A stretch of DNA of 64,000 bases from Halorhodospira halochloris (GTDB taxonomy: Bacteria; Pseudomonadota; Gammaproteobacteria; Nitrococcales; Halorhodospiraceae). The stretch covers positions 2,524,501 through 2,588,500 of the forward strand of contig NZ_AP017372.2 in assembly GCF_002356555.2 (NCBI RefSeq). The letters are read 5' to 3'. A model generated the notes under the pieces. It was not told where the DNA came from. It saw nothing but the letters and a program-made list of their open reading frames with translations, and searched no databases. The first letter of the stretch is position 1. Each line of letters starts with the position of its first letter. A program made the position numbers and the translations under genes. Shown here in pieces: positions 14,685 through 29,049 of the stretch.

Positions 14685-17534
14685 ATGGACTATATCCGCA
14701 TCCGCGGCGCACGAACTCACAACCTGCGCAACGTCGACGTCGACATCCCCCGCAACCAACTCGTAGTCATCACCGGCCTCTCCGGCTCGGGCAAGTCATC
14801 ACTTGCCTTCGACACCCTCTACGCCGAGGGCCAGCGCCGCTATGTCGAATCCCTCTCGGCCTACGCCCGGCAGTTTCTCTCTATGATGGATAAGCCCGAC
14901 GTTGACCATATCGAAGGGCTGTCACCGGCCATCTCGGTAGAGCAGAAACGCGCCTCGCACAACCCCCGCTCCACGGTGGCGACAGTCACCGAAATCCACG
15001 ACTACCTGCGCCTGCTCTTCGCCCGCGTCGGCACTCCGCACTGCCCCGAGCACGGCATCGCCCTGCATGCCAGCTCGGTCAGCGAGATGGTGGACAGGCT
15101 GCTGGCCGAACCGCAGGGCAGCAAGATGATGCTGCTCGCCCCGATCGAGCACCCCAGCGGCAGCGCTCAACAGACCTGTGAACAGCTACGCGCTCAGGGC
15201 TTTATTCGTGCCCGCATCGACGGAGTGATCCGCGAACTGGAGCAGACACCCCAAGTAAGTGCCGATCAGGATCACCAGATTGAGGCAGTCATCGATCGTT
15301 TTCGTATCCGCGATGACCTCGCCGGGCGCCTAGCCGATTCGCTAGAGACCGCCCTAGCCATCAGTGACGGCATAGTGCGGGCAGGCTGGCTAGACGAGCC
15401 CGAGCGCGAGCCACTGACCTTCTCCACCCGCTACTCCTGCCCGCAGTGTGGCTACAGCGTCGAACCCCTTGAGCCGCGGATGTTCTCATTTAATAACCCC
15501 AACGGTGCCTGCCCGAGCTGTGACGGGCTTGGAGTAGAGCACCATTTCGATCCCGCCAAGGTCGTCAGCCGCCCGCAACTCGCCCCTGCCGAGGGCGCCA
15601 TCCGCGGCTGGGACAGGCGCAACGCCTACTACTTCAACCTGCTCGAGGGGCTTGCCGAGCACTACGGTTTTGACATTACCACCCCCTGGGAGAACTTAAC
15701 CGACGAAGTCCGCGAGGTAATGCTCTACGGCTCAGGAGATGAGGAGATTGAATTCCGCTACCCAACCCGTAGCGGCGAAACCGTCCACTGCCACCCATTC
15801 GAGGGGGTTATACCCAACCTGCAACGCCGTTACCGGGAAGCAGAATCGGCCACTGTCCGCGAAGAGCTTGGTCGTTACATCAGCGAACGTCTCTGCCGGG
15901 AGTGCCAGGGCAGCCGCCTTAACGAGCGCGCCCGCAACGTCAGCGTCGCTGGCTATAAACTAGCTGAACTGGCCGCGCTGCCTATCCATGAGGCTCACCA
16001 GCGTTTCGGCAACCTCGAGCTGACCGGTTCCCGCGCGACAATTGCCGCCCCGGTGATCGATGAGATCCGCCGCCGTCTCGGCTTCCTCGACGATGTCGGG
16101 CTCGGTTACCTGACCCTGGAACGTTCGGCGGACAGCCTCTCCGGCGGCGAGGCGCAGCGCATCCGCCTAGCCAGCCAGATCGGCGCCGGCTTGGTCGGCG
16201 TACTCTACGTCCTCGATGAGCCCTCGATTGGCCTCCACCCGCGCGACCATAACCGGTTGCTGGCGACCCTGCGGCGCCTGCGCGATATGGGCAACAGCGT
16301 CGTAGTAGTCGAGCACGAAGAGGACTCGATCCGCGCCGCCGATCACCTGATCGACATGGGCCCCGGCGCCGGCGTCCACGGTGGTGAGGTGGTTGCCACC
16401 GGCACCCCGAAGCAAGTCGCCGCCAATCCGGCATCGGTTACCGGGGCCTTTCTCAGCGGTCAGCGCCGCATAGAGATCCCCCACCGCCGCCGCTCGCCCG
16501 ACTTCACAGAGCCGCTACGCATCCGTGCTGCTAGCGGCCACAATCTCAACAACCTAGATATCGAACTGCCGCGCGGCCTGCTGATCGGCGTTACCGGCGT
16601 CTCGGGCTCCGGCAAATCGACCTTGATCAACGACACCCTCTACCGCCAGGCCGCCAAGCAGCTCAATGCTGCCCACACCGACCCTGCTGCCCATGCGGGC
16701 ATTGATGGCCTAGAGTACTTCGATAAGGTAGTTGATATCGACCAGAGCCCCATTGGACGGACCCCGCGCTCCAACCCGGCAACCTATACCGGCCTATTCG
16801 GCCCGATCCGCGAACTCTTCGCCGCCACCCCAGAGGCCCGCTCCCGTGGCTATAAGCCCGGGCGCTTCTCATTTAACGTCCGCGGCGGGCGCTGCGAGGC
16901 CTGCCAGGGCGAAGGCGTGGTGCGGGTGGAGATGCACCTGCTGCCCGATCTCTACGTCGCCTGCGACGCCTGCAAGGGCACCCGCTTTAACCGCGAGACG
17001 CTGGAGATTCGCTATCGCGGCTATACCATCCATGAAGTACTCGAGATGAGCGTTGAGCAGGCGCGCGAGTTTTTCGAGGCCGTCCCCACAGTCCGCCGCA
17101 AGCTCGACATGCTCAGCGAGGTCGGCCTCGACTACCTTTGCCTCGGCCAAAACGCCACCACACTCTCCGGCGGCGAGGCGCAACGGGTCAAACTAGCCCG
17201 CGAGCTCTCGCGCCGCGAACACGGCCGCACCCTCTATATCCTGGATGAGCCGACCACCGGGCTGCACTTTGCCGATGTCGAGCAGCTGCTCGGTGTACTC
17301 CAGCAGCTCTGTGATAACGGCAACACGGTGATCGTTGTCGAACACGATCTCGATATCATCAAATGCGCCGATTGGGTCATCGACCTCGGCCCGGAAGGCG
17401 GCGCAGCGGGTGGCAACCTGGTAGCGGCTGGAACCCCCGAGGATATTGCTGAGGCAGAGGGCTCCTATACTGGGCAGTACCTCCGCCAAGTACTAGGTAA
17501 GACATACGCGAATCTCATACTTGAGGGCGATTGA
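14685..17534 (+). CDS. uvrA: Excinuclease ABC subunit A
   Basis: UvrA finds bulky DNA damage and loads UvrB in nucleotide excision repair. The 949-residue protein has two ABC ATPase modules: Walker A motifs [13 protein letters not shown] near residue 31 and [13 protein letters not shown] near 640, and signatures [17 protein letters not shown] and [17 protein letters not shown]. Two zinc-binding regions are complete ([10 protein letters not shown]...CPSCDG and CEACQGEG...CDACKG). Length and order match the family. It is divergent from ssb. Confidence 0.98.
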
Positions 17535-17598: not shown

Positions 17599-18069
17599 AT
17601 GCTTGCGGGCAGAACTAAGGCGTACTCAATAAGTGCAGCAGTCTACTTGGTGTTGTATAGCTCAGCCGGCTTAGCCGACTCCGCTGGCACTCAAGAGAGC
17701 GGATCCTTTACGGCTGATGTCGAGGTGATCCCCGCAGCCGGTGTCGACTCTACTAATATCAATCCCTCACTGGCGCTCAATGACGGTGCCCCCATCACCC
17801 CGGGCGAAACAGCCAGTGGTGAAGTTGAGCTAAAAATACTTGGTTTAGGGCCCATAGAGATAAGCTACTCACAAGAGCTAACCGAACACCCCTCTGGTGC
17901 GGATTCGGGTGACGGCAGCTCCACCGAGCTTAATCTCCCCGATGACAAAACCGAATTGGTGGCGTTTTACAAGACCCGCACAGATGAGATAAAAGCTGAA
18001 ACTCAGGAAGATGCTGAGGCGGGCCGTTACCAGTGGCACGTCACCGTTACCGCGGCCTACGATTGGTAA
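17599..18069 (+). CDS. Pilin-like exported protein
   Basis: The 156-residue protein has a signal peptide (SISAAVYLVLYSSAGLAD) and then an acidic beta-rich domain starting GSFTADVEVIPAAG. It ends YQWHVTVTAAYDW. This layout, and the C-terminal strand ending Tyr-Asp-hydrophobic, match the two pilin-like proteins at 22080 and 22746. It is on the opposite strand, convergent with the usher gene, so it has its own promoter. It may be a minor subunit or an adhesin-like tip partner of the same pilus. Sequence identity to the other two is low, so the assignment rests on layout and position. Confidence 0.6.
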   Translation: MLAGRTKAYSISAAVYLVLYSSAGLADSAGTQESGSFTADVEVIPAAGVDSTNINPSLALNDGAPITPGETASGEVELKILGLGPIEISYSQELTEHPSGADSGDGSSTELNLPDDKTELVAFYKTRTDEIKAETQEDAEAGRYQWHVTVTAAYDW

Positions 18070-18163
18070 CCACCCCTTGGCTTACCCAGCCCCCGTTCCC
18101 CGACCCCCCCCTCTAAAATAAAAAACCTGGCTTGCTAAATCCCATTGCCGGATGAGCGGCCAG

Positions 18164-21091
18164 TCACTCGCCCTCTATTTGCAACTCCCTTTGGTGCTCC
18201 CAGTGGGCCACCTCGTCGAGCGGCGCGCGGTCCGTCGGCACGACCACCCGGGTTCCATCGGCCAGCTCTCCGTTAAGCATGCGTACCTCCTCGACCAGCG
18301 CCTCCAGGCCGCCCTCGACCTGTTCGGCACCCAAGCGCTCGATGACATGCGCTAGATGCTCGCGTAACTCGTGCTCGGCGTCATAGTCGAAGCTGATCTG
18401 CTCGACGGGATGCGCCGGTGAGGCAAGCTGGATGATCTCGCCACCGTCATGGATTGTCATATCCATATTGCTGACCAGGTCACCATCTCCCTCGACGGTT
18501 ACCTGCTGCGCCGTGGCCTCCTGCGGCGCACCCAGTCGCTCGGCCTGGCCCTCAGACGCCTGCACCAGATAGTCCCCTGGCGGCAACTGATCGAGGATAT
18601 AGAGTCCGTCGTAGGCACTTCGGGCAGTGCTTATCAACTCCCCTGTTTCGGTATCTAACGCCTCGAGCTCGAAGCCGGAAGCCTCAACAGGAGCCTCGAC
18701 TCCACGGCGGCGCTCCACCACTCCATCGATCTCGCCGGTCACGTGCAGCTCGAAATCGACCGGCAGAACCCGCCCAGGCCGCGGCACAAAACTGACTCCT
18801 CGGCTCGCCGGCTGAACAAATGGATTGTCGATACTACCTACATCCACCTCTACATTGACCGGCTCGTGCGGTTCCAGCCGCGCCACCCATGCCTCTCCAT
18901 CGGCGTCGGTGGCACCACACGCACGCTCAGCGCAGACCTCAACCCCCTCAACCGGCTCCCCATCTTGGTGGATATTGGCCATAACCGCCCCGCGATCGTA
19001 GCCTCTGCCGGCCTCAGGGTCAGGCACCCAGCCACCGTCGGGATGGGGCAGGCCGCCAACATCCAGACCGACAGATACTTGCCAGCTACCCTCACTATCT
19101 ACCTCACCACGCCCCGAGAACCGCCAGTACTCCCGAGTAATACGGGACAGGCCCAGTCTGAGGCTGTGCGGGCGATCGTTGAAACTACCACGCAGGCGAG
19201 CACTGCCACGCCAGTCCTCGTTGAGGTTCTGACTGTACTCGGCGTTGGCGTTATTCAGCTCGGCATCTGGGGCCAGATCATAATTTAATCCCAGATTAAT
19301 GCGCCCTTCCCGGTGACGCCCCCAACGGGTTCGCACGTTGCCGCTAGCAATTATATCCTCATAGTCTTCCCGGCTTACGGTTAATGAATGGCGCAGCATC
19401 AGACCATTGAGCCTAATATTCTCTCGAGTCCGCAGCCTCTGCCAGATAGAATCACCCCCTGCCGACTCCTGGTGCTCGTAGCGCAGCCGGGTGCGCAACC
19501 CCCCCACTGAACCGGCAAGATGAAGTTCATGTTTGTGGCGCAAATCACCGCTGACCCGCTCGCGGATCTCGTCGGTAGCCAAACCAGCAACGTGGGTATA
19601 CTCATAGCTCAAATCTATTGGCCCTAGCCCACGATCCAGAGCCAATTGCCAGGCCCGTCCATTTCCGCTTTCCCAAGCTCCACGCAATCGGCCCCAAACC
19701 CCGAAAGCACTAAACGCGGCATCGGCACCTGCCACCTCGCCATGGGCTGAATAATCGTCCTCCTCTGGATCAAGGTAGTGGATATCAGCACCAACGCTTA
19801 GGCTCTCAGTAACACCCACATCAACTCGGCCAGCCGCGCTTTGATCGTAATCGTCTTGAGGATCATCCTCGTAGATGCTCTTGCCCTCCCGGGTAGCATC
19901 CAGGCTGTAGTGAACCGTACCGGGTGGCAACAACCCCGGACCTATCTCTATGGTGCGGGTGATTGTTTCACGCTCACCATGCGGACCGTAGAGCTCGATG
20001 GTGTAGTGGTTGGTGCCTGAACGGGCATCAATATCATCAAACTCATGGCGATCTGTCTCCACGTCTTGAGCGAAATCGACAAGATCATCGTCCCGGTAAA
20101 GCTCGACGTCCCAACCCTGGGGCACCTCAATCTCGATGCTCTGGTCAGTAAAGGTGGTACGCGCCACGCCCTCGGGGCGATTGGTTACGGTTACGCCCAT
20201 GCCGGAACTACCGCGGCGGAGCAGATCGTAGCGTGGCGGATTAACCCGACCCAACTCGTAGCGCTCCAGTGCCGGATGGCCCACCTGCTGCCCGAGGGTA
20301 CCGTCAAAACGGCGAATGTAATCGTCATCGTTAGCCAGCAGCCGCCACTCCGAGTCGTGCCAAAGCAGGTCGCCGGCCCCGGCAAGATCAGCACTTGTGG
20401 AACTTCGCTCTTCGTTAAGACGTTGATCAAGACTCAAGGACCAGGCCGGGCGGGTAAGTGCACGCGGCGGCAGTTCCTCACGCGGCAACCACTCCTCGCC
20501 TTCTTCCCCCGGCGCATCATCGCGCAGCTGCGCCCAGCGGGCCTCGCGCTCCAGGCGCCTGAGTACAGGCATATCCTCCCTGGCGCGGATATGAACCTCG
20601 GCACTACGCGGTCGATAATCGAAATCTACCGGAAGGAACTCCTGGATGGCCGCTTCACGAAAGTAGAGATCGTCGTGCTCTTGGATCCAATCAGCTTCAT
20701 CGAGGATCAGTGGGTCTTCATCGATCTCACCCATCCCGCTAGCGGTATCGAATGATACCTCTCTATCTTGCTCGAGAATCCACCCAGAGACCTCCCCCTC
20801 CAGTGGATCGACATCGAGTGCAAGTTCAAGGTGACGGGCCAGCTGACCCAGGGGATAATAGATGTCGTCTTCTTTCTGGAGCATATACTCGCTCTCAGAG
20901 AGGGTATAGCCCTCCAGCTCAAGGCGCAGGACCATATCCTCGGCCCCTGCAGCCTCATCCTCTTCCTGGAGACGCTCAACAGAGAGCGGCGCAGGGACAC
21001 TAGGCGACCAGAGTATTAGGCCGATGGCAAGCAGCCACGCTGCCCACCCAGGCCGCCAATCGAGCCTACCCCCCCTCAGCCAAAGCACCAC
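18164..21091 (-). CDS. Outer-membrane usher-like protein of a chaperone-usher pilus
   Basis: This 975-residue protein is the probable outer-membrane assembly platform. A signal peptide (AWLLAIGLILWSPSVPA) is followed by an N-terminal periplasmic domain, then a plug-like beta domain (IEVPQGWDVELYRDDDLVDF). A long barrel with many alternating strands follows, starting near YSLDATREGK. Two Ig/carboxypeptidase-regulatory-like domains lie near residues 690-860 (EPHEPVNVEVDVG, LYILDQLPPGDYLVQASEG), before an unusual helical acidic tail. The alternative (CS1-type) ushers are the best match in style. It begins 1 bp after the chaperone stop. Strong Asp/Glu enrichment fits a halophile. Exact usher subfamily is uncertain. 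Confidence 0.75.
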   Translation of the reverse strand: MVLWLRGGRLDWRPGWAAWLLAIGLILWSPSVPAPLSVERLQEEDEAAGAEDMVLRLELEGYTLSESEYMLQKEDDIYYPLGQLARHLELALDVDPLEGEVSGWILEQDREVSFDTASGMGEIDEDPLILDEADWIQEHDDLYFREAAIQEFLPVDFDYRPRSAEVHIRAREDMPVLRRLEREARWAQLRDDAPGEEGEEWLPREELPPRALTRPAWSLSLDQRLNEERSSTSADLAGAGDLLWHDSEWRLLANDDDYIRRFDGTLGQQVGHPALERYELGRVNPPRYDLLRRGSSGMGVTVTNRPEGVARTTFTDQSIEIEVPQGWDVELYRDDDLVDFAQDVETDRHEFDDIDARSGTNHYTIELYGPHGERETITRTIEIGPGLLPPGTVHYSLDATREGKSIYEDDPQDDYDQSAAGRVDVGVTESLSVGADIHYLDPEEDDYSAHGEVAGADAAFSAFGVWGRLRGAWESGNGRAWQLALDRGLGPIDLSYEYTHVAGLATDEIRERVSGDLRHKHELHLAGSVGGLRTRLRYEHQESAGGDSIWQRLRTRENIRLNGLMLRHSLTVSREDYEDIIASGNVRTRWGRHREGRINLGLNYDLAPDAELNNANAEYSQNLNEDWRGSARLRGSFNDRPHSLRLGLSRITREYWRFSGRGEVDSEGSWQVSVGLDVGGLPHPDGGWVPDPEAGRGYDRGAVMANIHQDGEPVEGVEVCAERACGATDADGEAWVARLEPHEPVNVEVDVGSIDNPFVQPASRGVSFVPRPGRVLPVDFELHVTGEIDGVVERRRGVEAPVEASGFELEALDTETGELISTARSAYDGLYILDQLPPGDYLVQASEGQAERLGAPQEATAQQVTVEGDGDLVSNMDMTIHDGGEIIQLASPAHPVEQISFDYDAEHELREHLAHVIERLGAEQVEGGLEALVEEVRMLNGELADGTRVVVPTDRAPLDEVAHWEHQRELQIEGE

Positions 21092-21092
21092 C

Positions 21093-21953
21093 TCACTCGA
21101 TGACGACTGTCCGTTCCGCCTTTACATGGCCACCGACCTCGCCGAACCCCTCGCCCTCGTCTTCAAAGGCGCGGTAGACGACCCGCAGCTCATCGCCAGG
21201 GGCCAGATCGTGCTCATCCAGCGAGAACGGCAGGACCCGCTCCTCCATCGAGCTGGAGATCACGGCGCGCCCCCGCTCCAGGATTGGTTCGTCGTCACCA
21301 GGCCGATAGACCTCCAACGAGCCGTAGATGCCGCGATCACCGTTGCGCGCTACGGTGACCTGCAGGGCGTCTTCGTCCTCGTCGTCTTCGGCCGCCTCGA
21401 AGCGGGCGCCGCGGATCTGCGGCTCACCCTCCGGCTCGCCCACCTGGATCCCCACCGGGATGGTCATGGCGAAGAGCGCCTGAATATCCACGGCGACCTC
21501 ATCGTCCTCCAGCTCCTCCTCGGCGAAGGCAGGGGCATCCGCACTCGGCATGGTCCGAACCGCGAAACGGGCCCGGTACTCGCCCGGCTCCACGTCGTCG
21601 GGGACCCGCGACATGATGCGCACTGTCTGGCTCTCGCCTGGACCTAGGGTCATCTGGCGGGGGTGGTGGCGAAGCAGATCCGCACCGTGGTGTTCGCGCT
21701 CTCCGGCGGCCGGCTCGACTGGGTCAATCAGCTCCGAACGCCCGTAGGCGTCCGACTCCACGTCGGCGACCACTACCCGGTACTCCTGGACCTCGTCGCT
21801 TTGGTTGAAGACCTCAACCTGGGCGCTGCGCTGCTGATCATCGAAGAACAGCCGCTGCGGGGCGATCTGGATCGAAGCCGCGACTTGCGTCGCAGTAACG
21901 CCCAATGCCAGTCCGATTGTCGCGCTCGAGTACCAGCTCGCCGCCCGCTTCAT
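21093..21953 (-). CDS. Periplasmic pilus chaperone, PapD-like
   Basis: The 286-residue protein has a signal peptide and an N-terminal Ig-like PapD domain (SIQIAPQRLFFDDQQRSAQVEVFN). A long loop follows, then LGPGESQTVRIMSRVP and EPGEYRARFAVRTMP, the usual chaperone strands F and G region. The second domain (about residues 165-285) is acidic, including a DDEDED run. Such chaperones bind pilin subunits in the periplasm by donor-strand complementation. The gene follows two pilin-like genes and abuts the usher, the standard operon order. Confidence 0.82.
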   Translation of the reverse strand: MKRAASWYSSATIGLALGVTATQVAASIQIAPQRLFFDDQQRSAQVEVFNQSDEVQEYRVVVADVESDAYGRSELIDPVEPAAGEREHHGADLLRHHPRQMTLGPGESQTVRIMSRVPDDVEPGEYRARFAVRTMPSADAPAFAEEELEDDEVAVDIQALFAMTIPVGIQVGEPEGEPQIRGARFEAAEDDEDEDALQVTVARNGDRGIYGSLEVYRPGDDEPILERGRAVISSSMEERVLPFSLDEHDLAPGDELRVVYRAFEDEGEGFGEVGGHVKAERTVVIE

Positions 21954-22037
21954 GGATGCCCTCCTGTTCGTCTCAATCTATTCGTAGCGCCAAGGGACAT
22001 ACTGCTGGATCCAGCTTCCGAACCCATCACACAAGAA

Positions 22038-22066
22038 CCCCGCCTCCCAAAAAGAGGGACGCGGGG
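22038..22066 (-). terminator. Stem-loop between second pilin and chaperone genes
   Basis: CCCCGC and GCGGGG, plus TCCC and GGGA with one mismatch between, form a strong stem around an A-rich loop. Read on the minus strand it lies 14-42 bases after the pilin stop and is followed by TTCTTG. It could partly terminate or protect the pilin mRNA, so that pilin is made in excess over chaperone and usher. Confidence 0.5.
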
Positions 22067-22079
22067 GCAACAAACACCA

Positions 22080-22628
22080 CTATTGGTCGTAGGCGACCGT
22101 TACGGTGAACTCGTTCTTGTAGAGCCCGGCTTCCTCAGGGGCCGTCTCCTCGGCCCTATCACCATATTCGATCCACTGGGTGTCCTTACCATCTTCCCCT
22201 AAGGAAATCGGGTCACTCCCATTTTCATCTTCAAAACTGAACGAGGAAGTAAGGGGAATGATCGCCGTGTTGTCCCCGTTCTCAAGCTCCAGCTTCACGG
22301 TCTGGCCCTGGGCGTTATCGATATCGCCCTCAAGGTGGATGTGATACTCCCTGCCGGGCTCACCCTTGACATCGATATCAACGCCATCTACAGACGGCTC
22401 GGGAAGTTCCTCCCCGACAAAGACCGTTCCCTCTTCCCAGATGATGTCTCCCGAGGCCTCGACCGATATCGGGTTATGCACCGTGATATCCGTCGTGAAG
22501 CTCTCCTCCACCAGAGTGTCATCATCCCCGTCGTCCGCCAGCACCGGCGCGCTCACAAGCACCGCTGCGGCGGAGACGAGCGCCGGTACGGCCCATCGGC
22601 TCCGACGTTTTCCTGTTTCGGCCTTCAT
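22080..22628 (-). CDS. Pilin-like exported protein (second gene of pilus operon)
   Basis: The 182-residue protein has a signal peptide (WAVPALVSAAAVLVSAPVLA) and an acidic beta-rich domain. It contains TTDITVHNPISVEASG, which resembles VKLNVYEPISVGVSD in the neighbouring gene at 22746, and ends KNEFTVTVAYDQ. A Tyr near the end of an alternating hydrophobic strand is typical of chaperone-usher pilins. GAGGGG lies about 7 bases upstream of the ATG at 22628. Stem-loops lie on both sides of the gene. It may be the major or a minor subunit. Confidence 0.7.
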   Translation of the reverse strand: MKAETGKRRSRWAVPALVSAAAVLVSAPVLADDGDDDTLVEESFTTDITVHNPISVEASGDIIWEEGTVFVGEELPEPSVDGVDIDVKGEPGREYHIHLEGDIDNAQGQTVKLELENGDNTAIIPLTSSFSFEDENGSDPISLGEDGKDTQWIEYGDRAEETAPEEAGLYKNEFTVTVAYDQ

Positions 22629-22667
22629 TTCGAACCCCTCTAACAGGTTGCATCACCGACCGGATTA

Positions 22668-22690
22668 GGGAGGCGGCCTGCCCGCCTCCC
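22668..22690 (-). terminator. Stem-loop between first and second pilin genes
   Basis: GGGAGGCGG and CCGCCTCCC form a perfect 9-bp stem with a 5-base loop. It sits about 56 bases past the first pilin stop on the minus strand. No T-run follows, so it is more likely an mRNA-stability or attenuation element than a full terminator. Confidence 0.55.
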
Positions 22691-22745
22691 ACTCCGGCAA
22701 TCACCGGATCAGGCCCGTAGGCCTCGAAGATCCGTGCAAACCTCG

Positions 22746-23174
22746 TTAGAGGTCGTACTCGGCCGTCGCCTCGACGGTGATATCATACTCGCCAGCATCC
22801 TCGGCGGTCACATTCAGGGTGCCGGTGATATCATCCTCGCCAACCTTACCGGAGCCGTCGGGAACGCCGTCGTTCAGGTCCAGACCTTCCTCTGCGTCGT
22901 ATTTGTGCTCCGTCCAGTAGGTGAATTCAGCCTCATCCTCGCCGCTCACCGAGAAGCTATAGTCATCGCTAGCATTCTCACCCTCGACGAAGGTCTCGGG
23001 GAGCTCTGCCTCGTCGGAAACTCCCACCGAGATCGGCTCATATACGTTGAGCTTAACGTCGAAGGAGTCCGTGGCATCCTCGTGCACGTCCGCCATCACA
23101 TTACCGGCCCCGATGGCCAGAACCGAGCCCATAGTCGCAACAAGAGCGCCCTTAATTACTCGATCGTATTGCAT
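22746..23174 (-). CDS. Pilin-like exported protein (first gene of pilus operon)
   Basis: The ATG at 23174 is chosen because AGGAAGGA lies just upstream; an in-frame start 20 codons earlier would add a non-signal tail. The 142-residue protein has a signal peptide (GALVATMGSVLAIGAGNVMA) and an acidic domain with DVKLNVYEPISVGVSDEAE. It ends YDITVEATAEYDL. It shares the PISV motif and the C-terminal Tyr-Asp-X ending with the next gene. As the first gene with its own strong ribosome-binding site and a stem-loop behind it, it is a good candidate for the major subunit. Confidence 0.72.
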   Translation of the reverse strand: MQYDRVIKGALVATMGSVLAIGAGNVMADVHEDATDSFDVKLNVYEPISVGVSDEAELPETFVEGENASDDYSFSVSGEDEAEFTYWTEHKYDAEEGLDLNDGVPDGSGKVGEDDITGTLNVTAEDAGEYDITVEATAEYDL

Positions 23175-23430
23175 GATCCTTCCTCCGGTTGTTGGTTTCA
23201 CGCCGCAAAATTCAATTCTCTTACCTGACGCCAACCCTGCCGTTGGGTTTTAGGCTCTCCCTCGCGTAACGTCAGGAATATGATGAACACCCGTTGCGCC
23301 GCTGAAAATCGAACGAGTTTATGAAATTTACAGAAAATTTTGTCCTGGTTTTTAATAAAACCGTGTCACTCTTTTGCGCTCTAACTCATACGATTTTCTG
23401 ATAGTATAGTCCGGCTCCCAACCCAGAGTA
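23175..23430 (-). promoter_or_regulatory. AT-rich upstream region of the pilus operon
   Basis: This 256-bp gap lies between the regulator stop and the first pilin start. Positions 23310-23420 are markedly AT-rich (runs of A and T, TTTTAATAAAA) compared with the surrounding genes. It must hold the pilus promoter, but no single -35/-10 pair stands out. No gene was seen. Confidence 0.4.
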
Positions 23431-24216
23431 CTAGTACCTATCGAGAAGGTTATTGCGCGCCCACATAGCGGCCTCTACCCTGTTCTTTACCTCTAGCTTG
23501 CGGAATATGCTATATAGGTGAGACTTTACCGTATGTGTGCTAATCGACAGCTGACTAGCAATATCATCATTACTTGTACCCTCGCCTAAAGCACGCAGTA
23601 CAAGCATCTCCTTGACTGTAAGCAAATCGAGGCGGCTTCTTTCGATCTCCGCATAGCCGCTGCGAACACTTTTTACAAACCTGTTCAGTGCCTCGCGCGG
23701 GAACCAGATCTCGCCCGCAAGCATTGCACTTATCCCCCGCTCCAATAGTTCAGGAGGGGCATCATCACGAAGAACACCTACTATCAGGTCGCAGTGTAAA
23801 AATTGTTCAACATCAGTGCTCTGGGGCACATTGATCAAGCCGAGATAGATATCATTGATCGCCGCAACATCAGTCTTGGCACTCCTAGTGCCTAGCCGCT
23901 GCACCTCCTCCCCGGCAGTGTACATATCCAGCAGGATAAGCCTTGGCCTCCCGCCCCCTCCCAAGCCTTCACCTGCCTGCACAGCCCCATACAATTGCTC
24001 CGGGCGGATTACTTCACAGGTGCAAACCCCTGCTCCGGTAAGATGTTCGCTCAGTAGGCGGCTCTGCACCCCTGGCTGACAGATCAGATAGACGAGATCC
24101 GCACCAGATTCGAGACTTTTACTGTGCCGAGGCGAACTTGAGACACTCTCATGGATGCCGTTTGCTATCTTATCATTGTCTACAGTAGATAGGCTGCTCT
24201 CGCGACTACTATACAT
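23431..24216 (-). CDS. LuxR-family regulator, CsgD/VpsT-like
   Basis: The 261-residue protein has an N-terminal receiver-like domain (residues about 35-160) and a C-terminal LuxR helix-turn-helix (LTVKEMLVLRALGEGTSNDD, then STHTVKSHLYSIFRKLEVKN). Between them, EIWFPREALNRF resembles the W[FLM][TS]R motif that binds cyclic di-GMP in VpsT, with Pro in the third position. The ATG at 24216 is preferred because GAGGGGGAGGG lies just before it. It is directly upstream of the pilus operon on the same strand, so it probably controls pilus or biofilm genes. The receiver acidic pocket is incomplete, as in CsgD. Confidence 0.8.
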   Translation of the reverse strand: MYSSRESSLSTVDNDKIANGIHESVSSSPRHSKSLESGADLVYLICQPGVQSRLLSEHLTGAGVCTCEVIRPEQLYGAVQAGEGLGGGGRPRLILLDMYTAGEEVQRLGTRSAKTDVAAINDIYLGLINVPQSTDVEQFLHCDLIVGVLRDDAPPELLERGISAMLAGEIWFPREALNRFVKSVRSGYAEIERSRLDLLTVKEMLVLRALGEGTSNDDIASQLSISTHTVKSHLYSIFRKLEVKNRVEAAMWARNNLLDRY

Positions 24217-24578
24217 TATTACCCTCCCCCTCATGTTAGCTGGGTATTAATCACCAGCAGCGCTTTATATCCTTAAAACCACTGCTTATAACCATAGCTA
24301 GCGCATAGTAATCGCTCCGAATGCTATCTAAGCGATTAGTTATGGGTCAACTCAGAAGACATCAATTGATTAATAACTGCAAAAATGAGGAGATGCTCAG
24401 GTTTTGTTTATATCAAATTTTTTCTAGCAAAAGGCCTTTTCTATTTTAATACATGCAAAATGATGAAAGCTGCCCATCATGGCGCCCTTCCTGACACCCT
24501 TGACCCCGCAACCAAGCTGCCGCGGGGCTTACAGAAAGGGATTTATATAAATTATACCGCTATCACGCCAAAGAGGGA
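24217..24578. other. AT-rich intergenic region upstream of the CsgD-like regulator
   Basis: About 360 bp without a convincing gene. It contains AAAAGGCCTTTT (24429-24440), a perfect 12-base palindrome within an AT-rich stretch, and a weak hairpin CCCCGC/GCGGGG (24504-24527). Long AT-rich leaders are typical of csgD-type master regulators, so complex promoter control is plausible. A 66-codon plus-strand ORF here has no ribosome-binding site and looks spurious. Confidence 0.4.
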
Positions 24579-24720
24579 CCTCTAAAAGCGCCCCTGGGGC
24601 CACTCAACTGCCCGGTGTGGAGGTCTTGGCGCCAGGGATGGCGCCATGAAGCCTCCAGGGATGGATTCACGGCGTCCTCCACACCGGGCAGTTGAGTGGC
24701 CCCAGGGGCGCTTTTAGAGG
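24579..24720. repeat. Long palindromic repeat, copy 4
   Basis: Perfect 45-nt arms (24579-24623 and 24676-24720, 45 of 45 paired) flank a 52-nt loop (24624-24675) that is identical to the loop of copy 6 when that is reverse-complemented. The copy-specific arm includes CCTGGGGCCACTCAACT, unlike any other copy. It lies downstream of the GH65 gene and upstream of the regulator. Confidence 0.97.
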
Positions 24721-24909: not shown

Positions 24910-27339
24910 TCACTCGTAATAAGAGAGCTCCAGCGACTGACCCTGCTCAAGGGTATAGAGCTTGTCCCGATAGCCAATCGTGATCGGCGGGCAAAGACCC
25001 TCCTCAAGGCTTACCACCAGGCGGGTGTGGTTGACCAGGATGGTCAGCCAGTGACCTCGATAATGGACTTTGTGCTGCGTCTGTTTTAAGCCCTGCGGCA
25101 ATAACGGATTGAGCCACAGCACCCCGTCGCGCAGTTCCAGGCCAGTATAACCGCGCAGCACCAGATCGACTGTGCCCGCCATGGCGCCTAAGTGAATGCC
25201 CTCCTTGGTGGTGCCACCCTGGACATCCGCGACATCGCTCATCAGGGCGTTATCGAACAGATCCCAAGAGCGCTGCCGATCAGAGCGGGCCAGCACCCAG
25301 GAGTGGACGATATTACTCAGGGTGGAGCCGTGCGAGGTGCGCGCCTCGTAGTACTCGATATTGCGCCTAATCATCTCCGGCGCAAAATTATAACCCAGGC
25401 GATTAAACAGCTCCTCCAGCTTTTCAGCGGAGAAGAGATAGAAGAGCATCAGCACATCGGCCTGCTTGCTCGCCTTGTAGCGATTGACATCCTCGCCTTC
25501 TGCCTCAAGGATTCGATCAAGGCGATGGATGTCGCCATACCGCTCGCGGTAGCCTGCCCAGTCCAGCTCTTCAAGCTGCTCGTAGCCCTCATATTGACTG
25601 ATGATGCCATCGTCGTGGAAAGGCACGAACATCTTGCGGCTGATATCGTCCCAGCGCTGCAGCTCGGCCTCGTCAATGCCCAGATACTCCAGCAAATCTG
25701 AGCGCAGCGTCGGCGATAGGGCATCCAGGGCCTGCTGCGCAGTAAGCAGACACCAAACCGCCATAACATTGGTATAGGCGTTGTTATCGAGGCCCGCCTC
25801 TTCCCGATCCGGATAGCGCGTATGGAACTCATCCGGGCCGACCACGCCACAAATCTCGTAGCGCTGCTTAGTCGGGTTGAACTGCGCTAGGCTCGACCAG
25901 AACTGTGCGATGCTGAGGATCATCTCCGCCCCGGCAAAACCGAGGAACTCAGAGTCGCCGGTGACCTCGTAATAACGCCACGTGTTGTGGACGATGGCGG
26001 CGTTGACATGGCGCTGCTTATAAGTGGTATCGGGTAGCCAGCGCCCAGATTTGGGGTTGAGATGGAGGAACTGGCTCTCCTCGCGCCCATTACTGCCACT
26101 CTGCCAGGGGTACATTGCCCCGCGCAGGCCCAGCTCGCGCGCGCCCCAGCGCGCCTCGGGCAAGCGCCGGTAGCGGTACATCAGCAACGAGCGGGTAATC
26201 TCCGGCATGTGCAGATTGAGCAGGGGCAGGATAAACAGCTCATCCCAGAAGATGTGGCCGCGATAGGCCTCGCCATGCAGCCCCCGCGCTGGGACTCCGA
26301 CATCCAGGTCGATGGTGTGCAGCGAGGTGGTCTGGAGAAGGTGGAATATGTGCAGACGCAGCACCAATTGCTGTTCTAGAACGCCGTTGGTATCCGCCTC
26401 CAACTCAATATCCCACCAGTGCCAATACCGCTCCCAGGCCTGGCGCTGACATTCGAGCAGCTTTTGGAATCCTTCGACACGCTGAACAGCCCATTCGGCA
26501 TCGAGGGCCGGCTCGCAGATAGCACGATCCCGCCCGGTATAGAAAGCGGCTATTTTCTCCACCTCGAGGATCTCGCCTTGCTGACACTCCAACTCAATGT
26601 CGTGGCCGATGAATCCGTTCTCCTCTACCAGCTGACGCTCGACCCCGCTCGCCAACTCACCGCCACGATAGACACGGGTCCGGGCAGCGTGGGCCATATC
26701 GAGGCGCGATTGATTGGTCATGCTGCGCAACGTGACTGAGTCGGTAGCCGACTCGCGCGCCTCAAGTACTTCCAGGTGCTTGGTTTCGAGCTGGCGGTAG
26801 CGAGCCACGCCGAGATTCTCGACCCCACCATCAATCCCTGAGCGGATGACCAGCTTCCCCGACCAATTCAGCGGCTCGAACTGCCAATGTAACGCTGCGA
26901 GATGGCTGTCCCCCATATGGACTAGGCGCTGACTGGTCAAGCGGGTCTCCCGTCCAGCTGGATCCCGGAACCAGAGCCGATAGGTCAGGGTGCCGTGGCG
27001 AATATCGAGAACCTGCTTATACTCCAGCCACTCAACCTGATCGAAGTCAAGCCAATCGCCATCGGCCGGCTTAAAGTTAAGGCAGAGCCAGTTGGGCAGA
27101 TTGACCAGGTCCTCGTTCTCTACATTGCGCCCCGATACAACACTGGTGGCCCTATTGAAGCCACCAGCCATATAACTACCTGGATAGTGGGTGTCGCCGG
27201 CGCTTGCCCCTTCAAAGGCACCACGAGTGGCAAAACGGCCATTGCCCAATGTGCACAGCGCCTCACGGTGCTGCTGTTGCTCGGGATTCCACCCGTCGTA
27301 CTCCATCTGCCAGCCCAAGGTCTTGGGAAGTAACATCAT
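24910..27339 (-). CDS. Glycoside hydrolase family 65 phosphorylase (trehalose/kojibiose-type)
   Basis: Family 65 enzymes mostly split alpha-linked glucose disaccharides with phosphate, giving beta-glucose 1-phosphate. The 809-residue protein has the N-terminal domain (ALCTLGNGRFATRGAFEGAS), the (alpha/alpha)6 catalytic barrel with RGHIFWDELFILPLLNLHMP, and the general-acid glutamate in GVVGPDEFHTRYPD. The C-terminal beta-sandwich follows. Its start codon overlaps the stop of the trehalose-phosphatase gene, and a beta-phosphoglucomutase lies upstream. That set fits breakdown of trehalose or a related disaccharide to glucose 6-phosphate. Substrate specificity within the family cannot be read reliably. 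Confidence 0.88.
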   Translation of the reverse strand: MMLLPKTLGWQMEYDGWNPEQQQHREALCTLGNGRFATRGAFEGASAGDTHYPGSYMAGGFNRATSVVSGRNVENEDLVNLPNWLCLNFKPADGDWLDFDQVEWLEYKQVLDIRHGTLTYRLWFRDPAGRETRLTSQRLVHMGDSHLAALHWQFEPLNWSGKLVIRSGIDGGVENLGVARYRQLETKHLEVLEARESATDSVTLRSMTNQSRLDMAHAARTRVYRGGELASGVERQLVEENGFIGHDIELECQQGEILEVEKIAAFYTGRDRAICEPALDAEWAVQRVEGFQKLLECQRQAWERYWHWWDIELEADTNGVLEQQLVLRLHIFHLLQTTSLHTIDLDVGVPARGLHGEAYRGHIFWDELFILPLLNLHMPEITRSLLMYRYRRLPEARWGARELGLRGAMYPWQSGSNGREESQFLHLNPKSGRWLPDTTYKQRHVNAAIVHNTWRYYEVTGDSEFLGFAGAEMILSIAQFWSSLAQFNPTKQRYEICGVVGPDEFHTRYPDREEAGLDNNAYTNVMAVWCLLTAQQALDALSPTLRSDLLEYLGIDEAELQRWDDISRKMFVPFHDDGIISQYEGYEQLEELDWAGYRERYGDIHRLDRILEAEGEDVNRYKASKQADVLMLFYLFSAEKLEELFNRLGYNFAPEMIRRNIEYYEARTSHGSTLSNIVHSWVLARSDRQRSWDLFDNALMSDVADVQGGTTKEGIHLGAMAGTVDLVLRGYTGLELRDGVLWLNPLLPQGLKQTQHKVHYRGHWLTILVNHTRLVVSLEEGLCPPITIGYRDKLYTLEQGQSLELSYYE

Positions 27340-28130
27340 TGCCCCTCTTGCAGCAAAAGCTCAAAAAACTGTTTTACCTCTTCCACGCTGCTTAACTGAT
27401 ACTGAGCCGCTGTTTCTCGCTCCAGCTCGCCAACAAAGATGCCGATGCCCTTGCCCTGCAAGGCCTTAAAGGCGTCTTCATCAGTCCAGTCATCACCCAG
27501 ATAGAGAGGTGTCACCCCGGGCTTATCCAGCCCCAGTGCCTCAAGCAGCCACAGCACTGCCCGCCCCTTGTCCCAGGGCACGTCAGGCTGCAGCTCGAAG
27601 ACCATTTTGCCGTGCCCCAAGCGCAGCTTCGGGTGCGCGGCGACTATCTCTTGCACCGTTGCCGCGAGCTGCTCGCGCTCTCCCTCAGCGACATGCCGGA
27701 AGTGGACAGCCAGGGCAAAGGCCTTACGCTCCAGCGCCCAGCCGGCAATATTGGCCAACCTCCCTTCGAGCTCTGCCTGGGCCTTATCAAGCTCCTCGAC
27801 ACAGGCCTCGCCCTCGGCATTGCGTTGCTTCAAGCCCCCCGGCCCGGCAATATCGAAGCCGTGGCTGCCGGCATAGTAGACCTGCTCTAAGCGCGCAAAC
27901 CCCTGCAGGGTGGGCAGATCACGGCCACTGACCAGCGCCACGCTGTGCCGCTCGGCAAGGCTCGCCAGCAACTCACGCATCCGCTCATCAAGCACCGCCT
28001 GACTAGGATCATCGACGATCGGCGTCAGGGTGCCGTCGTAATCAAGGAACAGCGGGATCTGCTCGCCGGCCAGACGGTCTAGCAGCTCTCTTTTTACTTC
28101 TGGTTCAAACAGGTGCATCGGTCTACTCAT
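27336..28130 (-). CDS. otsB: Trehalose-6-phosphate phosphatase
   Basis: This HAD-family phosphatase removes phosphate from trehalose 6-phosphate. The 264-residue protein has the nucleophile motif FLDYDGTLTPIVDDP near residue 32, SVALVSGRDLPTLQG, and the C-terminal LYLGDDWTDEDAFKAL with the metal-binding aspartates. The ATG at 28130 is preferred over one 18 bases upstream because GAGGGGAG lies just before it. It overlaps the GH65 gene by 4 bases. No trehalose-6-phosphate synthase gene (otsA) is in the window. Confidence 0.92.
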   Translation of the reverse strand: MSRPMHLFEPEVKRELLDRLAGEQIPLFLDYDGTLTPIVDDPSQAVLDERMRELLASLAERHSVALVSGRDLPTLQGFARLEQVYYAGSHGFDIAGPGGLKQRNAEGEACVEELDKAQAELEGRLANIAGWALERKAFALAVHFRHVAEGEREQLAATVQEIVAAHPKLRLGHGKMVFELQPDVPWDKGRAVLWLLEALGLDKPGVTPLYLGDDWTDEDAFKALQGKGIGIFVGELERETAAQYQLSSVEEVKQFFELLLQEGQ

Positions 28131-28142
28131 TGCACTCCCCTC

Positions 28143-28161
28143 GTGCACAGTTGTTGTGCAC
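28143..28161 (-). promoter_or_regulatory. Inverted repeat upstream of otsB
   Basis: GTGCACA and TGTGCAC form perfect 7-bp arms with a 5-base spacer. They lie 13-31 bases upstream of the otsB start, in the otsB-bpgm gap. It could be an operator for a dimeric regulator or a short mRNA hairpin near the ribosome-binding site. Confidence 0.45.
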
Positions 28162-28199
28162 TCTCTCTAATCGGCAGCTAAAACGCAGCGCTCTCGAGC

Positions 28200-28943
28200 T
28201 TATTTCAACTCGGTGATTTCGCTAACAGTTACATCGGCGCCATGCTCGATAAGATCAGCATGATTGCCATGGCGGGCCACCCCTACGACCACGGCAAAGC
28301 CCCCCGCAGCGCCTGCTTGGACGCCTGAGATGGCATCTTCAAACACCACACTTGCACTAGGCTCGACATCCAGCCGCCTGGCTGCCTCGATGAAGATATC
28401 CGGATCCGGTTTACCTTTAAGGCCGAGCTCGCGCGAGACTGCACCATCAACCCGGGCATCGAACAGCTCTTCGATGCCGGCGGCACGAATCATCGCCTGG
28501 CAGTTAAGGCTGGATGAGACGATGGCCGTCTTAACGCCAGCTTGGCGCCACTCTTTGACCCGCTCCAACCAGTCAGGAAAGACTTCCACCCCATCCCTAG
28601 CGAGCACTTGCTGAACCAGGGCATCTTTGCGGCTGCCCAGCCCATGCACTGTATCTAATTCCTGCAGATCGCCGTGTTCACCCTCAGGCAACTCGATGCC
28701 ACGTGCTGCTAAAAAGCTTCTCACCCCGTCGTGGCGGGGCAGGCCATCGACGTAGGCAAAGTAATCCCCCTCTTCATCAAACGGCACGAAGGGCTCTCCG
28801 CGCTCGACCGAATAACGCTGCAAAAATTCGTCAAACATCTCTTTCCAAGCCCGCGCATGAACCGTAGCGGTCCGCGTAACAACGCCATCCATGTCGAATA
28901 TCGCCGCTTGATACCCAGGAATTTCTACTTTTATGGCGCTCAT
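28200..28943 (-). CDS. Beta-phosphoglucomutase-like HAD hydrolase
   Basis: Beta-phosphoglucomutase converts beta-glucose 1-phosphate to glucose 6-phosphate, completing the pathway from a GH65 phosphorylase. The 247-residue protein has the nucleophile motif AIFDMDGVVTRTA with the second Asp as acid/base, VSSSLNCQAMIRAAG (motif II), GKPDPDIFIEAARRL (motif III) and VVFEDAISGVQAGAAGG (motif IV). These are strongly typical of the family. ATG at 28943 is used. It is divergent from the glrK sensor kinase. Confidence 0.88.
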   Translation of the reverse strand: MSAIKVEIPGYQAAIFDMDGVVTRTATVHARAWKEMFDEFLQRYSVERGEPFVPFDEEGDYFAYVDGLPRHDGVRSFLAARGIELPEGEHGDLQELDTVHGLGSRKDALVQQVLARDGVEVFPDWLERVKEWRQAGVKTAIVSSSLNCQAMIRAAGIEELFDARVDGAVSRELGLKGKPDPDIFIEAARRLDVEPSASVVFEDAISGVQAGAAGGFAVVVGVARHGNHADLIEHGADVTVSEITELK

Positions 28944-29049
28944 CAAAGAGCTCTCTCTATGTTATATAGGGCGTATCCGCGTCAGAAGAGCAAAGACCCT
29001 ATCGCTTTATGCCTTAGCTATTCAACCTTTTTGCAAATATCATTCCTTA

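Follow-up and report, generated by a model that had tools for sequence, protein, structure and literature searches.

Which structure is encoded by a run of six genes of the halophile Halorhodospira halochloris, in which the protein libraries used here fail to recognise a predicted outer-membrane gate as an usher? The genes lie at positions 17599 to 24234 of the window, that is, the whole stretch of 64,000 nucleotides that was analysed (contig NZ_AP017372.2, positions 2,524,501 to 2,588,500). An earlier note on this DNA had read them as a chaperone-usher pilus locus, with two pilin-like genes, a PapD-like chaperone and a 975-residue usher in one operon, a CsgD-like regulator directly upstream and a third pilin-like gene convergent with the usher, and all of these genes are present in that arrangement. 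We will argue that the locus encodes, with a probability of about 0.8, all the parts of a chaperone-usher pilus, and that this pilus belongs to none of the classical, archaic and alternative groups but to one of its own. Since the libraries miss the gate, this group seems to be nameless in Pfam, in NCBIfam and in the open-access literature searched. That the locus is one of a chaperone-usher pilus is borne out by the fold of the usher, the PapD-like chaperone, the kinship of the pilins and the conservation of the operon.

The usher

The predicted outer-membrane assembly platform is a protein of 975 residues encoded at 18164..21091 on the minus strand, as are all the parts of it that we will locate. 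Its only Pfam match above the cut-off is CarboxypepD_reg (PF13620, E 3.7e-8, residues 806-851). PF00577, PapC_N and PapC_C have no match in it, PF00577 has none across the whole genome (a single contig of 2,834,560 bases), and NCBIfam has none for the usher, the chaperone or pilins B and C. Against the sequences of the PDB, phmmer gives no match with the usher itself, and the usher profile finds no usher, its matches being chiefly SdrD-like or further small domains that align with the second C-terminal domain (CTD2).

The structure prediction gives a clear picture. The AlphaFold2 model, built from 21 homologues, has a predicted local distance difference test (pLDDT) of 80 and a predicted template modelling score (pTM) of 0.60, and its order is an N-terminal domain (model residues 51-170, from the secondary structure of the model; 20582..20941), six barrel strands, an Ig-like plug domain (residues 314-383; 19943..20152), the remaining 18 strands, a pair of small beta domains and a tail of helices. 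The barrel region (residues 216-682; 19046..20446) has 24 strands outside the plug, counted by hand from the strand list of the model, and the plug is inserted between strands 6 and 7. This is the layout of FimD and PapC, in which the plug also sits between strands 6 and 7 of a barrel of 24. In a Foldseek search of the PDB every chain at ranks 1 to 17 belongs to FimD or PapC (E 7.5e-28 to 3.2e-13), and the best-placed chain of any other kind has E 4.8e-8. VIA likewise gives ushers at ranks 1 to 15 (first other row Z 16.6), the scores being Z 24.4 for 9fw9_D (609 residues at a root-mean-square deviation, rmsd, of 6.8) and, over residues 213-682, Z 23.3 for 3ohn_B, the FimD translocation domain. 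The identity to known ushers in structural alignments is 11-14%. Several columns of the plug region are near-invariant, and it is in this region that the weak profile matches to real ushers are located. The model clearly predicts an usher with a plugged 24-strand barrel, an N-terminal domain and two C-terminal domains; the earlier note had proposed the lack of such a barrel as grounds for giving up the pilus, and the plugged barrel predicted here has FimD and PapC as its best PDB matches.

The note had also seen extra Ig-like and helical domains at the C-terminus of the usher. The VIA match to FimD extends to residue 880, and because the two small beta domains are aligned to FimD by VIA and to PF00577 ushers by hhalign, they are the ordinary CTD1 (model residues 701-795; 18707..18991) and CTD2 (residues 805-881; 18449..18679; Pfam label CarboxypepD_reg), so that extra Ig-like domains are rejected and only the helical tail (residues 882-975; 18167..18448) is an addition. 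The helices of this tail are predicted at 909-920, 928-940 and 959-974; some 95 residues long, it is shared with the genus relatives L002 and L003 in an alignment of eight ushers and has no Pfam match at E <= 1.

The operon and its relatives

On the minus strand, the head-to-tail order of the genes is pilin C (22746..23174, 142 aa), pilin B (22080..22628, 182 aa), chaperone (21093..21953, 286 aa) and usher, whose GTG start stands 1 nt behind the stop of the chaperone, and pilin A (17599..18069, plus strand, 156 aa) is convergent with this operon. The listed open reading frame of pilin C extends to 23234, but the ATG at 23174 is preceded by a good ribosome-binding site and, judging from the sequence, is more likely to be the start.

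A profile-pattern search of the GTDB contigs with the usher family yielded 453 confirmed relatives; an earlier contig search with the single window usher had given 33 pattern matches and no relative. The figures for loci refer to the best 80 of the 453, whose ushers are all distinct and of which five are identical in sequence to loci inside the usher profile. A chaperone of the same family lies within 1.7 kb of the usher in 77 of these 80 loci, the two genes are direct neighbours with a shared strand in 62, and 75 loci have a pilin within 5 kb, so that the association of the gene set is more than chance. The five loci without a pilin are on contigs of 3.1 to 5.8 kb, and in four of these loci the usher has the chaperone as its neighbour.

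The 80 relatives come from Pseudomonadota, Thermodesulfobacteriota, Nitrospinota, Chlorobiota, Acidobacteriota and Eiseniibacteriota, and also include Lujinxingia (Bradymonadales, to which NCBI gives no phylum). Among the relatives we find Sphingomonadales, Rhodospirillales, Desulfobacterales, Chlorobiales, Acidobacteriota and marine gammaproteobacteria. The genome matches of the usher profile number 36/369 and 20/299, many of them short and CTD2-like; by eye, full-length or split full-length ushers make up 11 of the 36 and 6 of the 20, own genome included. Seven plasmid records contain a relative, and six of these annotate the usher, four as carboxypeptidase regulatory-like, one as SdrD B-like and one as hypothetical. 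In the two plasmid records that were inspected, the subunits are labelled DUF4402 and the chaperone "molecular chaperone" or "hypothetical protein". Complete-looking loci are carried by plasmids of Polaromonas and Pseudoalteromonas (NZ_MG869618.1, NZ_CP099918.1).

In the 41 of 81 ushers scanned with Pfam, CarboxypepD_reg covers CTD2 in 39 and SPOR is present in 10; among one or two of the 41, one usher carries POTRA_2 (E 2e-15) and one TPR. In some relatives SPOR is fused to the usher, or proteins of the SPOR, FlgO or FlgT type are encoded beside it; none of these was found at the window locus. Behind the usher, marine relatives have three tandem FlgO-domain genes (L083:10925-12909, E down to 5.4e-44) or an FlgT_M protein (L075:11198-12223, E 7.3e-13), FlgO and FlgT being domains known from flagellar outer rings. 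At L123:4195-6035 and, by eye, at similar sphingomonad loci, the operon stands beside parA/parB-like genes (ParB by Pfam in L123, E 1.6e-36; ParA by eye only).

Closer to the window, the usher occurs in 3 of the 9 genomes of the genus, several of which are incomplete. The two other genomes, G006 and G007, have the genes in the same order (pilin A, usher, chaperone, pilin B, pilin C), with a further pilin gene between pilin A and the usher in G006. There the loci adjoin ilv-looking genes, at another genomic place than in the window.

The pilins

Pilin B matches DUF4402 (PF14352) at E 0.0013, with 19.8 bits for a cut-off of 25.2 bits. Pilins A and C have no DUF4402 match and nothing reliable in Pfam, pilin C having no match at all at E <= 0.01, and the one NCBIfam match of pilin A is at chance level. 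Across the operons DUF4402 matches 65 of 70 subunits at E <= 0.01, the alignment of 70 being drawn from 146 non-redundant pilins, and it is above the cut-off in the relatives L004 and L006.

A genus-free profile of 63 pilins finds pilin B (E 5.3e-7) and pilin C (E 5.4e-5) among the 169 open reading frames of the window and no further one at E <= 10, pilin A being missed; the values that other profiles give for B and C come from profiles that contain them. This same profile also matches proteins at four PF00577 places of our controls (E 4.7e-10 to 7.1e-5), all of which are SCPU in Pfam (E 4.8e-14 or better), the domain found in the subunits of archaic pili. Because the genus-free profile finds both pilins B and C and the SCPU pilins, the former are pilin kin by sequence. 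The full pilin profile matches at 5 of 11 PF00577 places and at 0 of 8 alpha places in a control set of 32 records, in which most PF00577 places have short flanks, and in the six of eight matched PF00577-place rows that were checked the protein is SCPU. The matches of the DUF4402-type pilin profile to SCPU subunits, at the archaic-type loci L176, L178, L179 and L180, suggest that PF14352 and PF05229 are related families.

The predicted fold points in the same direction, and is weaker. Against the PDB sequences, the first six matches of the pilin profile are Caf1 and FimG, at weak values (E 0.0037 to 0.13). The model of pilin B (pLDDT 67, pTM 0.55) has seven strands and no helix, and the first five chains that Foldseek finds for it are from structures of CfaB, PapA, a type 1 tip (6e14 chain G, presumably FimG), Caf1 and Csu. 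With VIA, PapA and FimG score Z 7.8 (116-117 residues at an rmsd of 2.8-2.9), a Z below 8 being one that can be at chance level, and 46 of its 50 rows are chaperone-usher subunits. The absence of a pilin Ig fold, which the note had named as the other possible ground for refutation, was not what the prediction gave, although this fold is seen less firmly than that of the usher.

The ends of the pilins have patterns that would suit the assembly of such fibres. In the 70 aligned pilins, polar and non-polar residues alternate at residues 43-50 and 173-180. Of 181 pilins, 148 have a tyrosine among their four C-terminal residues, a count that is partly built in because the seed pilins were chosen by a rule requiring Y or F near the C-terminus. 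The spacing was not selected for, and a glycine is found exactly 12 residues before this tyrosine in 105 of the 148 proteins, the frequency of G being 10.6%; this is the spacing of the classical pilin rule, in which G is at -14 and Y at -2.

Pilin A is a weaker case. Its C-terminus, G-x-Y-x(9)-Y-D-W, is of the kind seen in the other pilins, it occurs in exactly those 3 of the 9 genus genomes that have the usher, with homologues that are 42% and 37% identical in G006 and G007, and hhalign relates no more of it to the pilin family than the 16 columns at its end (prob 92, E 6.2e-7). A search of the own genome with the pilin profile gave only B and C at E <= 1, and since the profile misses pilin A this search is not exhaustive; within that scope no two-domain adhesin gene was seen.

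The chaperone

The window chaperone matches PapD_N at E 0.0012, below the cut-off, which the chaperone of the relative L004 exceeds, and hhalign aligns eight family chaperones to five from PF00577 loci with prob 97.2 and E 4.2e-11. Searched with phmmer against the PDB sequences it has no match; the chaperone profile has an enterococcal WxL-interacting protein first (E 0.0035), and CupB2 and FimC weakly. Among the controls, the profile matches at 5 of 11 PF00577 places and 4 of 8 alpha places, weakly (E 2.3e-10 or worse). The details of the chaperone are weaker than its kinship. In 96 family chaperones, the unique ones of 110 matches, the conserved residues are P32 (0.96), R34 (0.94), P98 (0.98), a G-E-Y-R motif (0.95-1.00) and R203 (0.95). 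A passage of PMC4654587 describes an arginine in strand F1 as the trait that most characterises archaic and alternative chaperones. In our alignments, Y-R stands in a comparable F1 strand in the family chaperones and in two of five controls, and H-R in a third control.

Place among the chaperone-usher groups

According to a passage of PMC9452303, chaperone-usher systems form three groups and six clades, and the classical and alternative systems are limited to beta- and gamma-proteobacteria. The ushers of the family are outside the Pfam usher families. PF00577 has 0 of 41 matches among them at E <= 0.001, the relative L016 reaching E 0.0021, below the cut-off, and TcfC, CooC_C and Usher_TcfC have no match in the window usher or in the relatives scanned. 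The controls, for their part, are found as they should be: four PF00577 controls carry PF00577, and in four alpha controls TcfC and CooC_C are both present, with one CooC_C under the cut-off and with Usher_TcfC as well in one of these four.

The trees give the same separation. In a quick tree of 47 ushers, 31 of them of the family, the three groups stand apart (SH-aLRT 99 for the family, 80 for PF00577, 100 for alpha), with stems of 0.88 for the family and 1.08 for alpha. In a careful tree of 46 ushers and 556 columns, all 30 family ushers, which are chosen members, fall in one clade outside the PF00577 and alpha ushers, with UFBoot/SH-aLRT of 100/99 for the family, 98/88 for PF00577 and 100/99 for alpha; the roots of the trees are midpoints. 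Classical-type and archaic-type ushers are both sampled in the PF00577 set, because L050 has PapC_N and PapC_C and five of its ten tree rows (L176, L177, L178, L179, L149) are from places with SCPU subunits. The suspicion that the pilus is poorly represented in pilus classifications is supported in so far as its usher lies outside the Pfam usher families and in a clade of its own.

The family could instead be a branch of the archaic (sigma) clade that has diverged beyond what PF00577 can score, which we consider unlikely. The pilin matches to SCPU at PF00577 places and to none at alpha places speak for such a branch, as do the profile distances between ushers: hhalign joins the family to eight PF00577 ushers at E 3.8e-27 and to the alpha ushers at 2.5e-14, and PF00577 to alpha at 5.4e-23, so that by this measure, whose values vary with alignment depth, the distance of the family from PF00577 does not exceed that of alpha. 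The E-Y-R of the chaperone also resembles the Y-R of two controls, in the strand that PMC4654587 singles out, and the wide range of phyla is one that PMC9452303, in the passage concerned, states for archaic systems. One neighbour of an usher, at L147, had been a candidate DUF4402 protein and was rejected as such, its Pfam family being SCPU; the odds of an archaic branch were therefore raised slightly and those of a separate group lowered slightly. Set against this, both trees put the family outside a PF00577 set half of which comes from SCPU places and which coheres at 98/88, though at an SH-aLRT of only 80 in the quick tree; the lack of PF00577 matches in the ushers and the Pfam match of the operon pilins, which is to DUF4402 and not to SCPU, also speak against an archaic branch.

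The separate group that we favour may also be ranked, and we lean, with less assurance, towards a fourth major group, with a stem of alpha-like length, at least six phyla, parts that are unnamed or carry other labels and, in some members, a SPOR-anchored platform. SPOR is a peptidoglycan-binding family, and with SPOR on the usher or on the protein next to it the assembly platform of these members would therefore be anchored to the cell wall; we know of no described chaperone-usher system with such an anchored platform.

Assembly, and what weighs against a pilus of a separate group

In the mechanism that we propose, pilins A, B and C, of the DUF4402 type, would be exported by Sec, and the PapD-like chaperone would cap them in the periplasm and hand them to the N-terminal domain of the usher. 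In donor-strand exchange, each pilin would use its N-terminal segment (F-x-[TVA]-x-[ILV]-x-V) to complete the Ig fold left open in the subunit before it, the last strand of the receiving pilin carrying the G...Y motif, and the fibre would exit via the 24-strand barrel once the plug has moved. Its likely role would be attachment, aggregation or biofilm formation, and the acidic residues may make it tolerant to salt in this halophile. Computation supplies the genes, the family and its clade, the conserved operon, the fold of the usher and the kinship in sequence between the pilins and SCPU pilins; Sec export, capping by the chaperone, donor-strand exchange, extrusion, the filament, its function and any choice of the major or tip pilin we infer.

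The same genes could encode instead a secretion channel that resembles an usher and through which DUF4402 proteins leave one by one, with no fibre. DUF4402 has no stated function, a two-domain adhesin-like subunit is present, by a length rule, in only 6 of the 80 loci, and the SPOR, FlgO and FlgT neighbours are, to our knowledge, unusual for pili. We nonetheless hold this to be quite improbable, in view of the sequence and fold kinship to pilins that polymerise, of the 149 subunit genes in 80 loci, several per locus, and of strand patterns that are as expected for donor-strand exchange. That the locus is a degenerate, non-functional remnant in this genome, as its patchy presence in the genus, its different placement from G006 and G007 and the alteration of some chaperone positions conserved elsewhere might suggest, is highly improbable, since the reading frames are intact, the genus ushers are 70-73% identical at full length, and gene order and the convergent pilin A are kept despite the changed place.

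Several points weigh against a pilus of a separate group. The pilins alone do not separate it from archaic systems, because their profile cannot tell DUF4402 from SCPU. The filament and the outer-membrane location are predictions from genes and models. The model of pilin B is a middling one, it has no Foldseek match at E 0.001 or better, and its best VIA Z stays in the range where chance may operate. In the window, pilin B and the chaperone score under their Pfam cut-offs, pilin C has no Pfam match and pilin A escapes the pilin profiles. At columns 44, 46 and 48 of the pilins, where the donor strand would alternate, the non-polar residues are mostly small, with big hydrophobics at 23-29%. The F-strand arginine of the chaperone cannot be placed in exact register with that of known chaperones, and the window chaperone has Ser at column 233 (Tyr in 85% of the family) and Gln at column 170 (Arg in 90%). 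Finally, the control ushers comprise no named reference ushers and cover not every published Greek clade, many tree rows have an unusual letter make-up, some branches are long, and the rooting is at midpoints.

Acidity, regulator and surroundings

The proteins are indeed very acidic, as had been noticed, with isoelectric points of 4.48 for the usher, 4.37 for the chaperone, 4.10 for pilin A and 4.05 for both pilins B and C, and their net acidity comes to 0.109 in the usher and 0.170 in pilin B. Among 112 family entries (copies included) the usher ranks first in net acidity, and the ushers of its genus range from 0.095 to 0.109, for a family median of 0.019. As a definition of the group, a salt-adapted pilus lineage is rejected, as net acidity peaks in the genus of the window only and the relatives come from many other organisms, including Sphingomonadales, Chlorobiales and a Polaromonas plasmid whose source is glacier cryoconite. 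By these sequence comparisons, the acidity appears to be a halophile overlay on the pilus group.

The CsgD/VpsT-like LuxR regulator (23431..24234, minus strand) adjoins the pilus genes and matches GerE at E 5.8e-19, VpsT-like_REC at E 0.0006, below the cut-off, and the NCBIfam CsgD model with 97.8 bits, under the equivalog cut-off of 250. The VpsT-type motif that binds cyclic di-GMP is W[FLM][TS]R; by eye, the regulator has W-F-P-R at the comparable place and so departs from it. With phmmer, a relative of it is near the usher in 1 of the 80 loci (L110), plus L005, which is the same locus as L141, and none is near the usher in L139 (G006) or L140 (G007). Genome-wide, G006 has one relative, at the helix-turn-helix level only, and G007 has two, 43-45% identical, elsewhere. 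Seen from its distribution, the regulator is probably outside the conserved pilus system, and as a component of the pilus it is rejected: it adjoins the window locus, but its being part of the set is not sustained by G006 and G007, where it is absent beside the pilus genes. The own genome encodes a second CsgD/VpsT-like regulator at C1:1715347-1715994, 46% identical to that of the window.

Two GC-rich hairpins on the minus strand follow pilin genes, one 3' of pilin C (22668..22690; intergenic fold -59 kcal/mol, z -3.69) and one between pilin B and the chaperone (22038..22066; -47.3 kcal/mol), which is statistically weak because its z is -1.37. As a guess, they might act in transcript processing, leaving more transcript for the pilins than for the chaperone and usher. 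The promoter scan gave 7 sites for 3.3 expected, and the terminator scan 1 for 5.4 expected. The six-gene set is flanked by uvrA (14685-17534, plus strand) and by three sugar-metabolism genes (24910-28946, minus strand), all named by eye; the latter look like a GH65 phosphorylase, a trehalose phosphatase and a beta-phosphoglucomutase, perhaps of compatible-solute metabolism. Upstream of the regulator, at 24579-24720, two perfectly complementary arms of 45 nt are spaced by 52 nt. This 142-bp inverted-repeat unit has at least 69 matches in the own genome at E <= 0.001, at many places and on both strands, with 40 of 339 candidates scored, and with so many matches it looks like a large family of the repetitive extragenic palindromic or miniature inverted-repeat transposable element type.

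Significance

The open-access literature, to the exclusion of subscription papers and preprints, gave nothing for DUF4402, alone or with a chaperone and an usher, and nothing for an usher with a carboxypeptidase regulatory-like domain and pili; for an usher with a SPOR domain and a pilus it gave only papers that are unrelated by title. Among the titles listed, none describes this pilus group, and a description elsewhere is possible. If the further group is real, a Pfam domain that has had no stated function would acquire one, as DUF4402 would be a pilin, and the library label "carboxypeptidase regulatory-like" would stand for an usher in this group. Many unnamed operons would become readable as adhesive fibres, and donor-strand exchange could be tested over a wider range of sequences, a halophile included.

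Comparison with known systems

With the classical systems (type 1 and P pili), the group would share, according to the models, the architecture of the usher, a PapD-like chaperone and Ig-type subunits, whereas the window usher has neither PF00577 nor PapC_N nor PapC_C, is only 11-14% identical to known ushers in structural alignments and belongs to a clade of its own. The alternative (alpha) systems also have a long-stemmed usher clade outside PF00577, and their ushers are kin to those of the family (E 2.5e-14), but TcfC, CooC_C and Usher_TcfC have no match in those of the latter that were scanned, the window usher included, and the pilin profile has no match at the 8 alpha places. The archaic (sigma) systems, such as Csu and CupE, come closest: theirs is the nearest usher profile among the sets tested, their SCPU subunits are matched by the family pilin profile, they too extend over many phyla, and Y-R is found in the F1 strand of the chaperone. 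The family differs from them in an usher that is outside PF00577 and its clade, in subunits that match DUF4402 (65/70) and not SCPU in Pfam, in a CTD2 that is CarboxypepD_reg (39/41) and in the SPOR domain of 10 of 41 ushers. As for DUF4402 (PF14352) itself, it is the family that those 65 of 70 operon subunits match, and whereas it is described as being of unknown function, we read it here as the putative pilin of this group.

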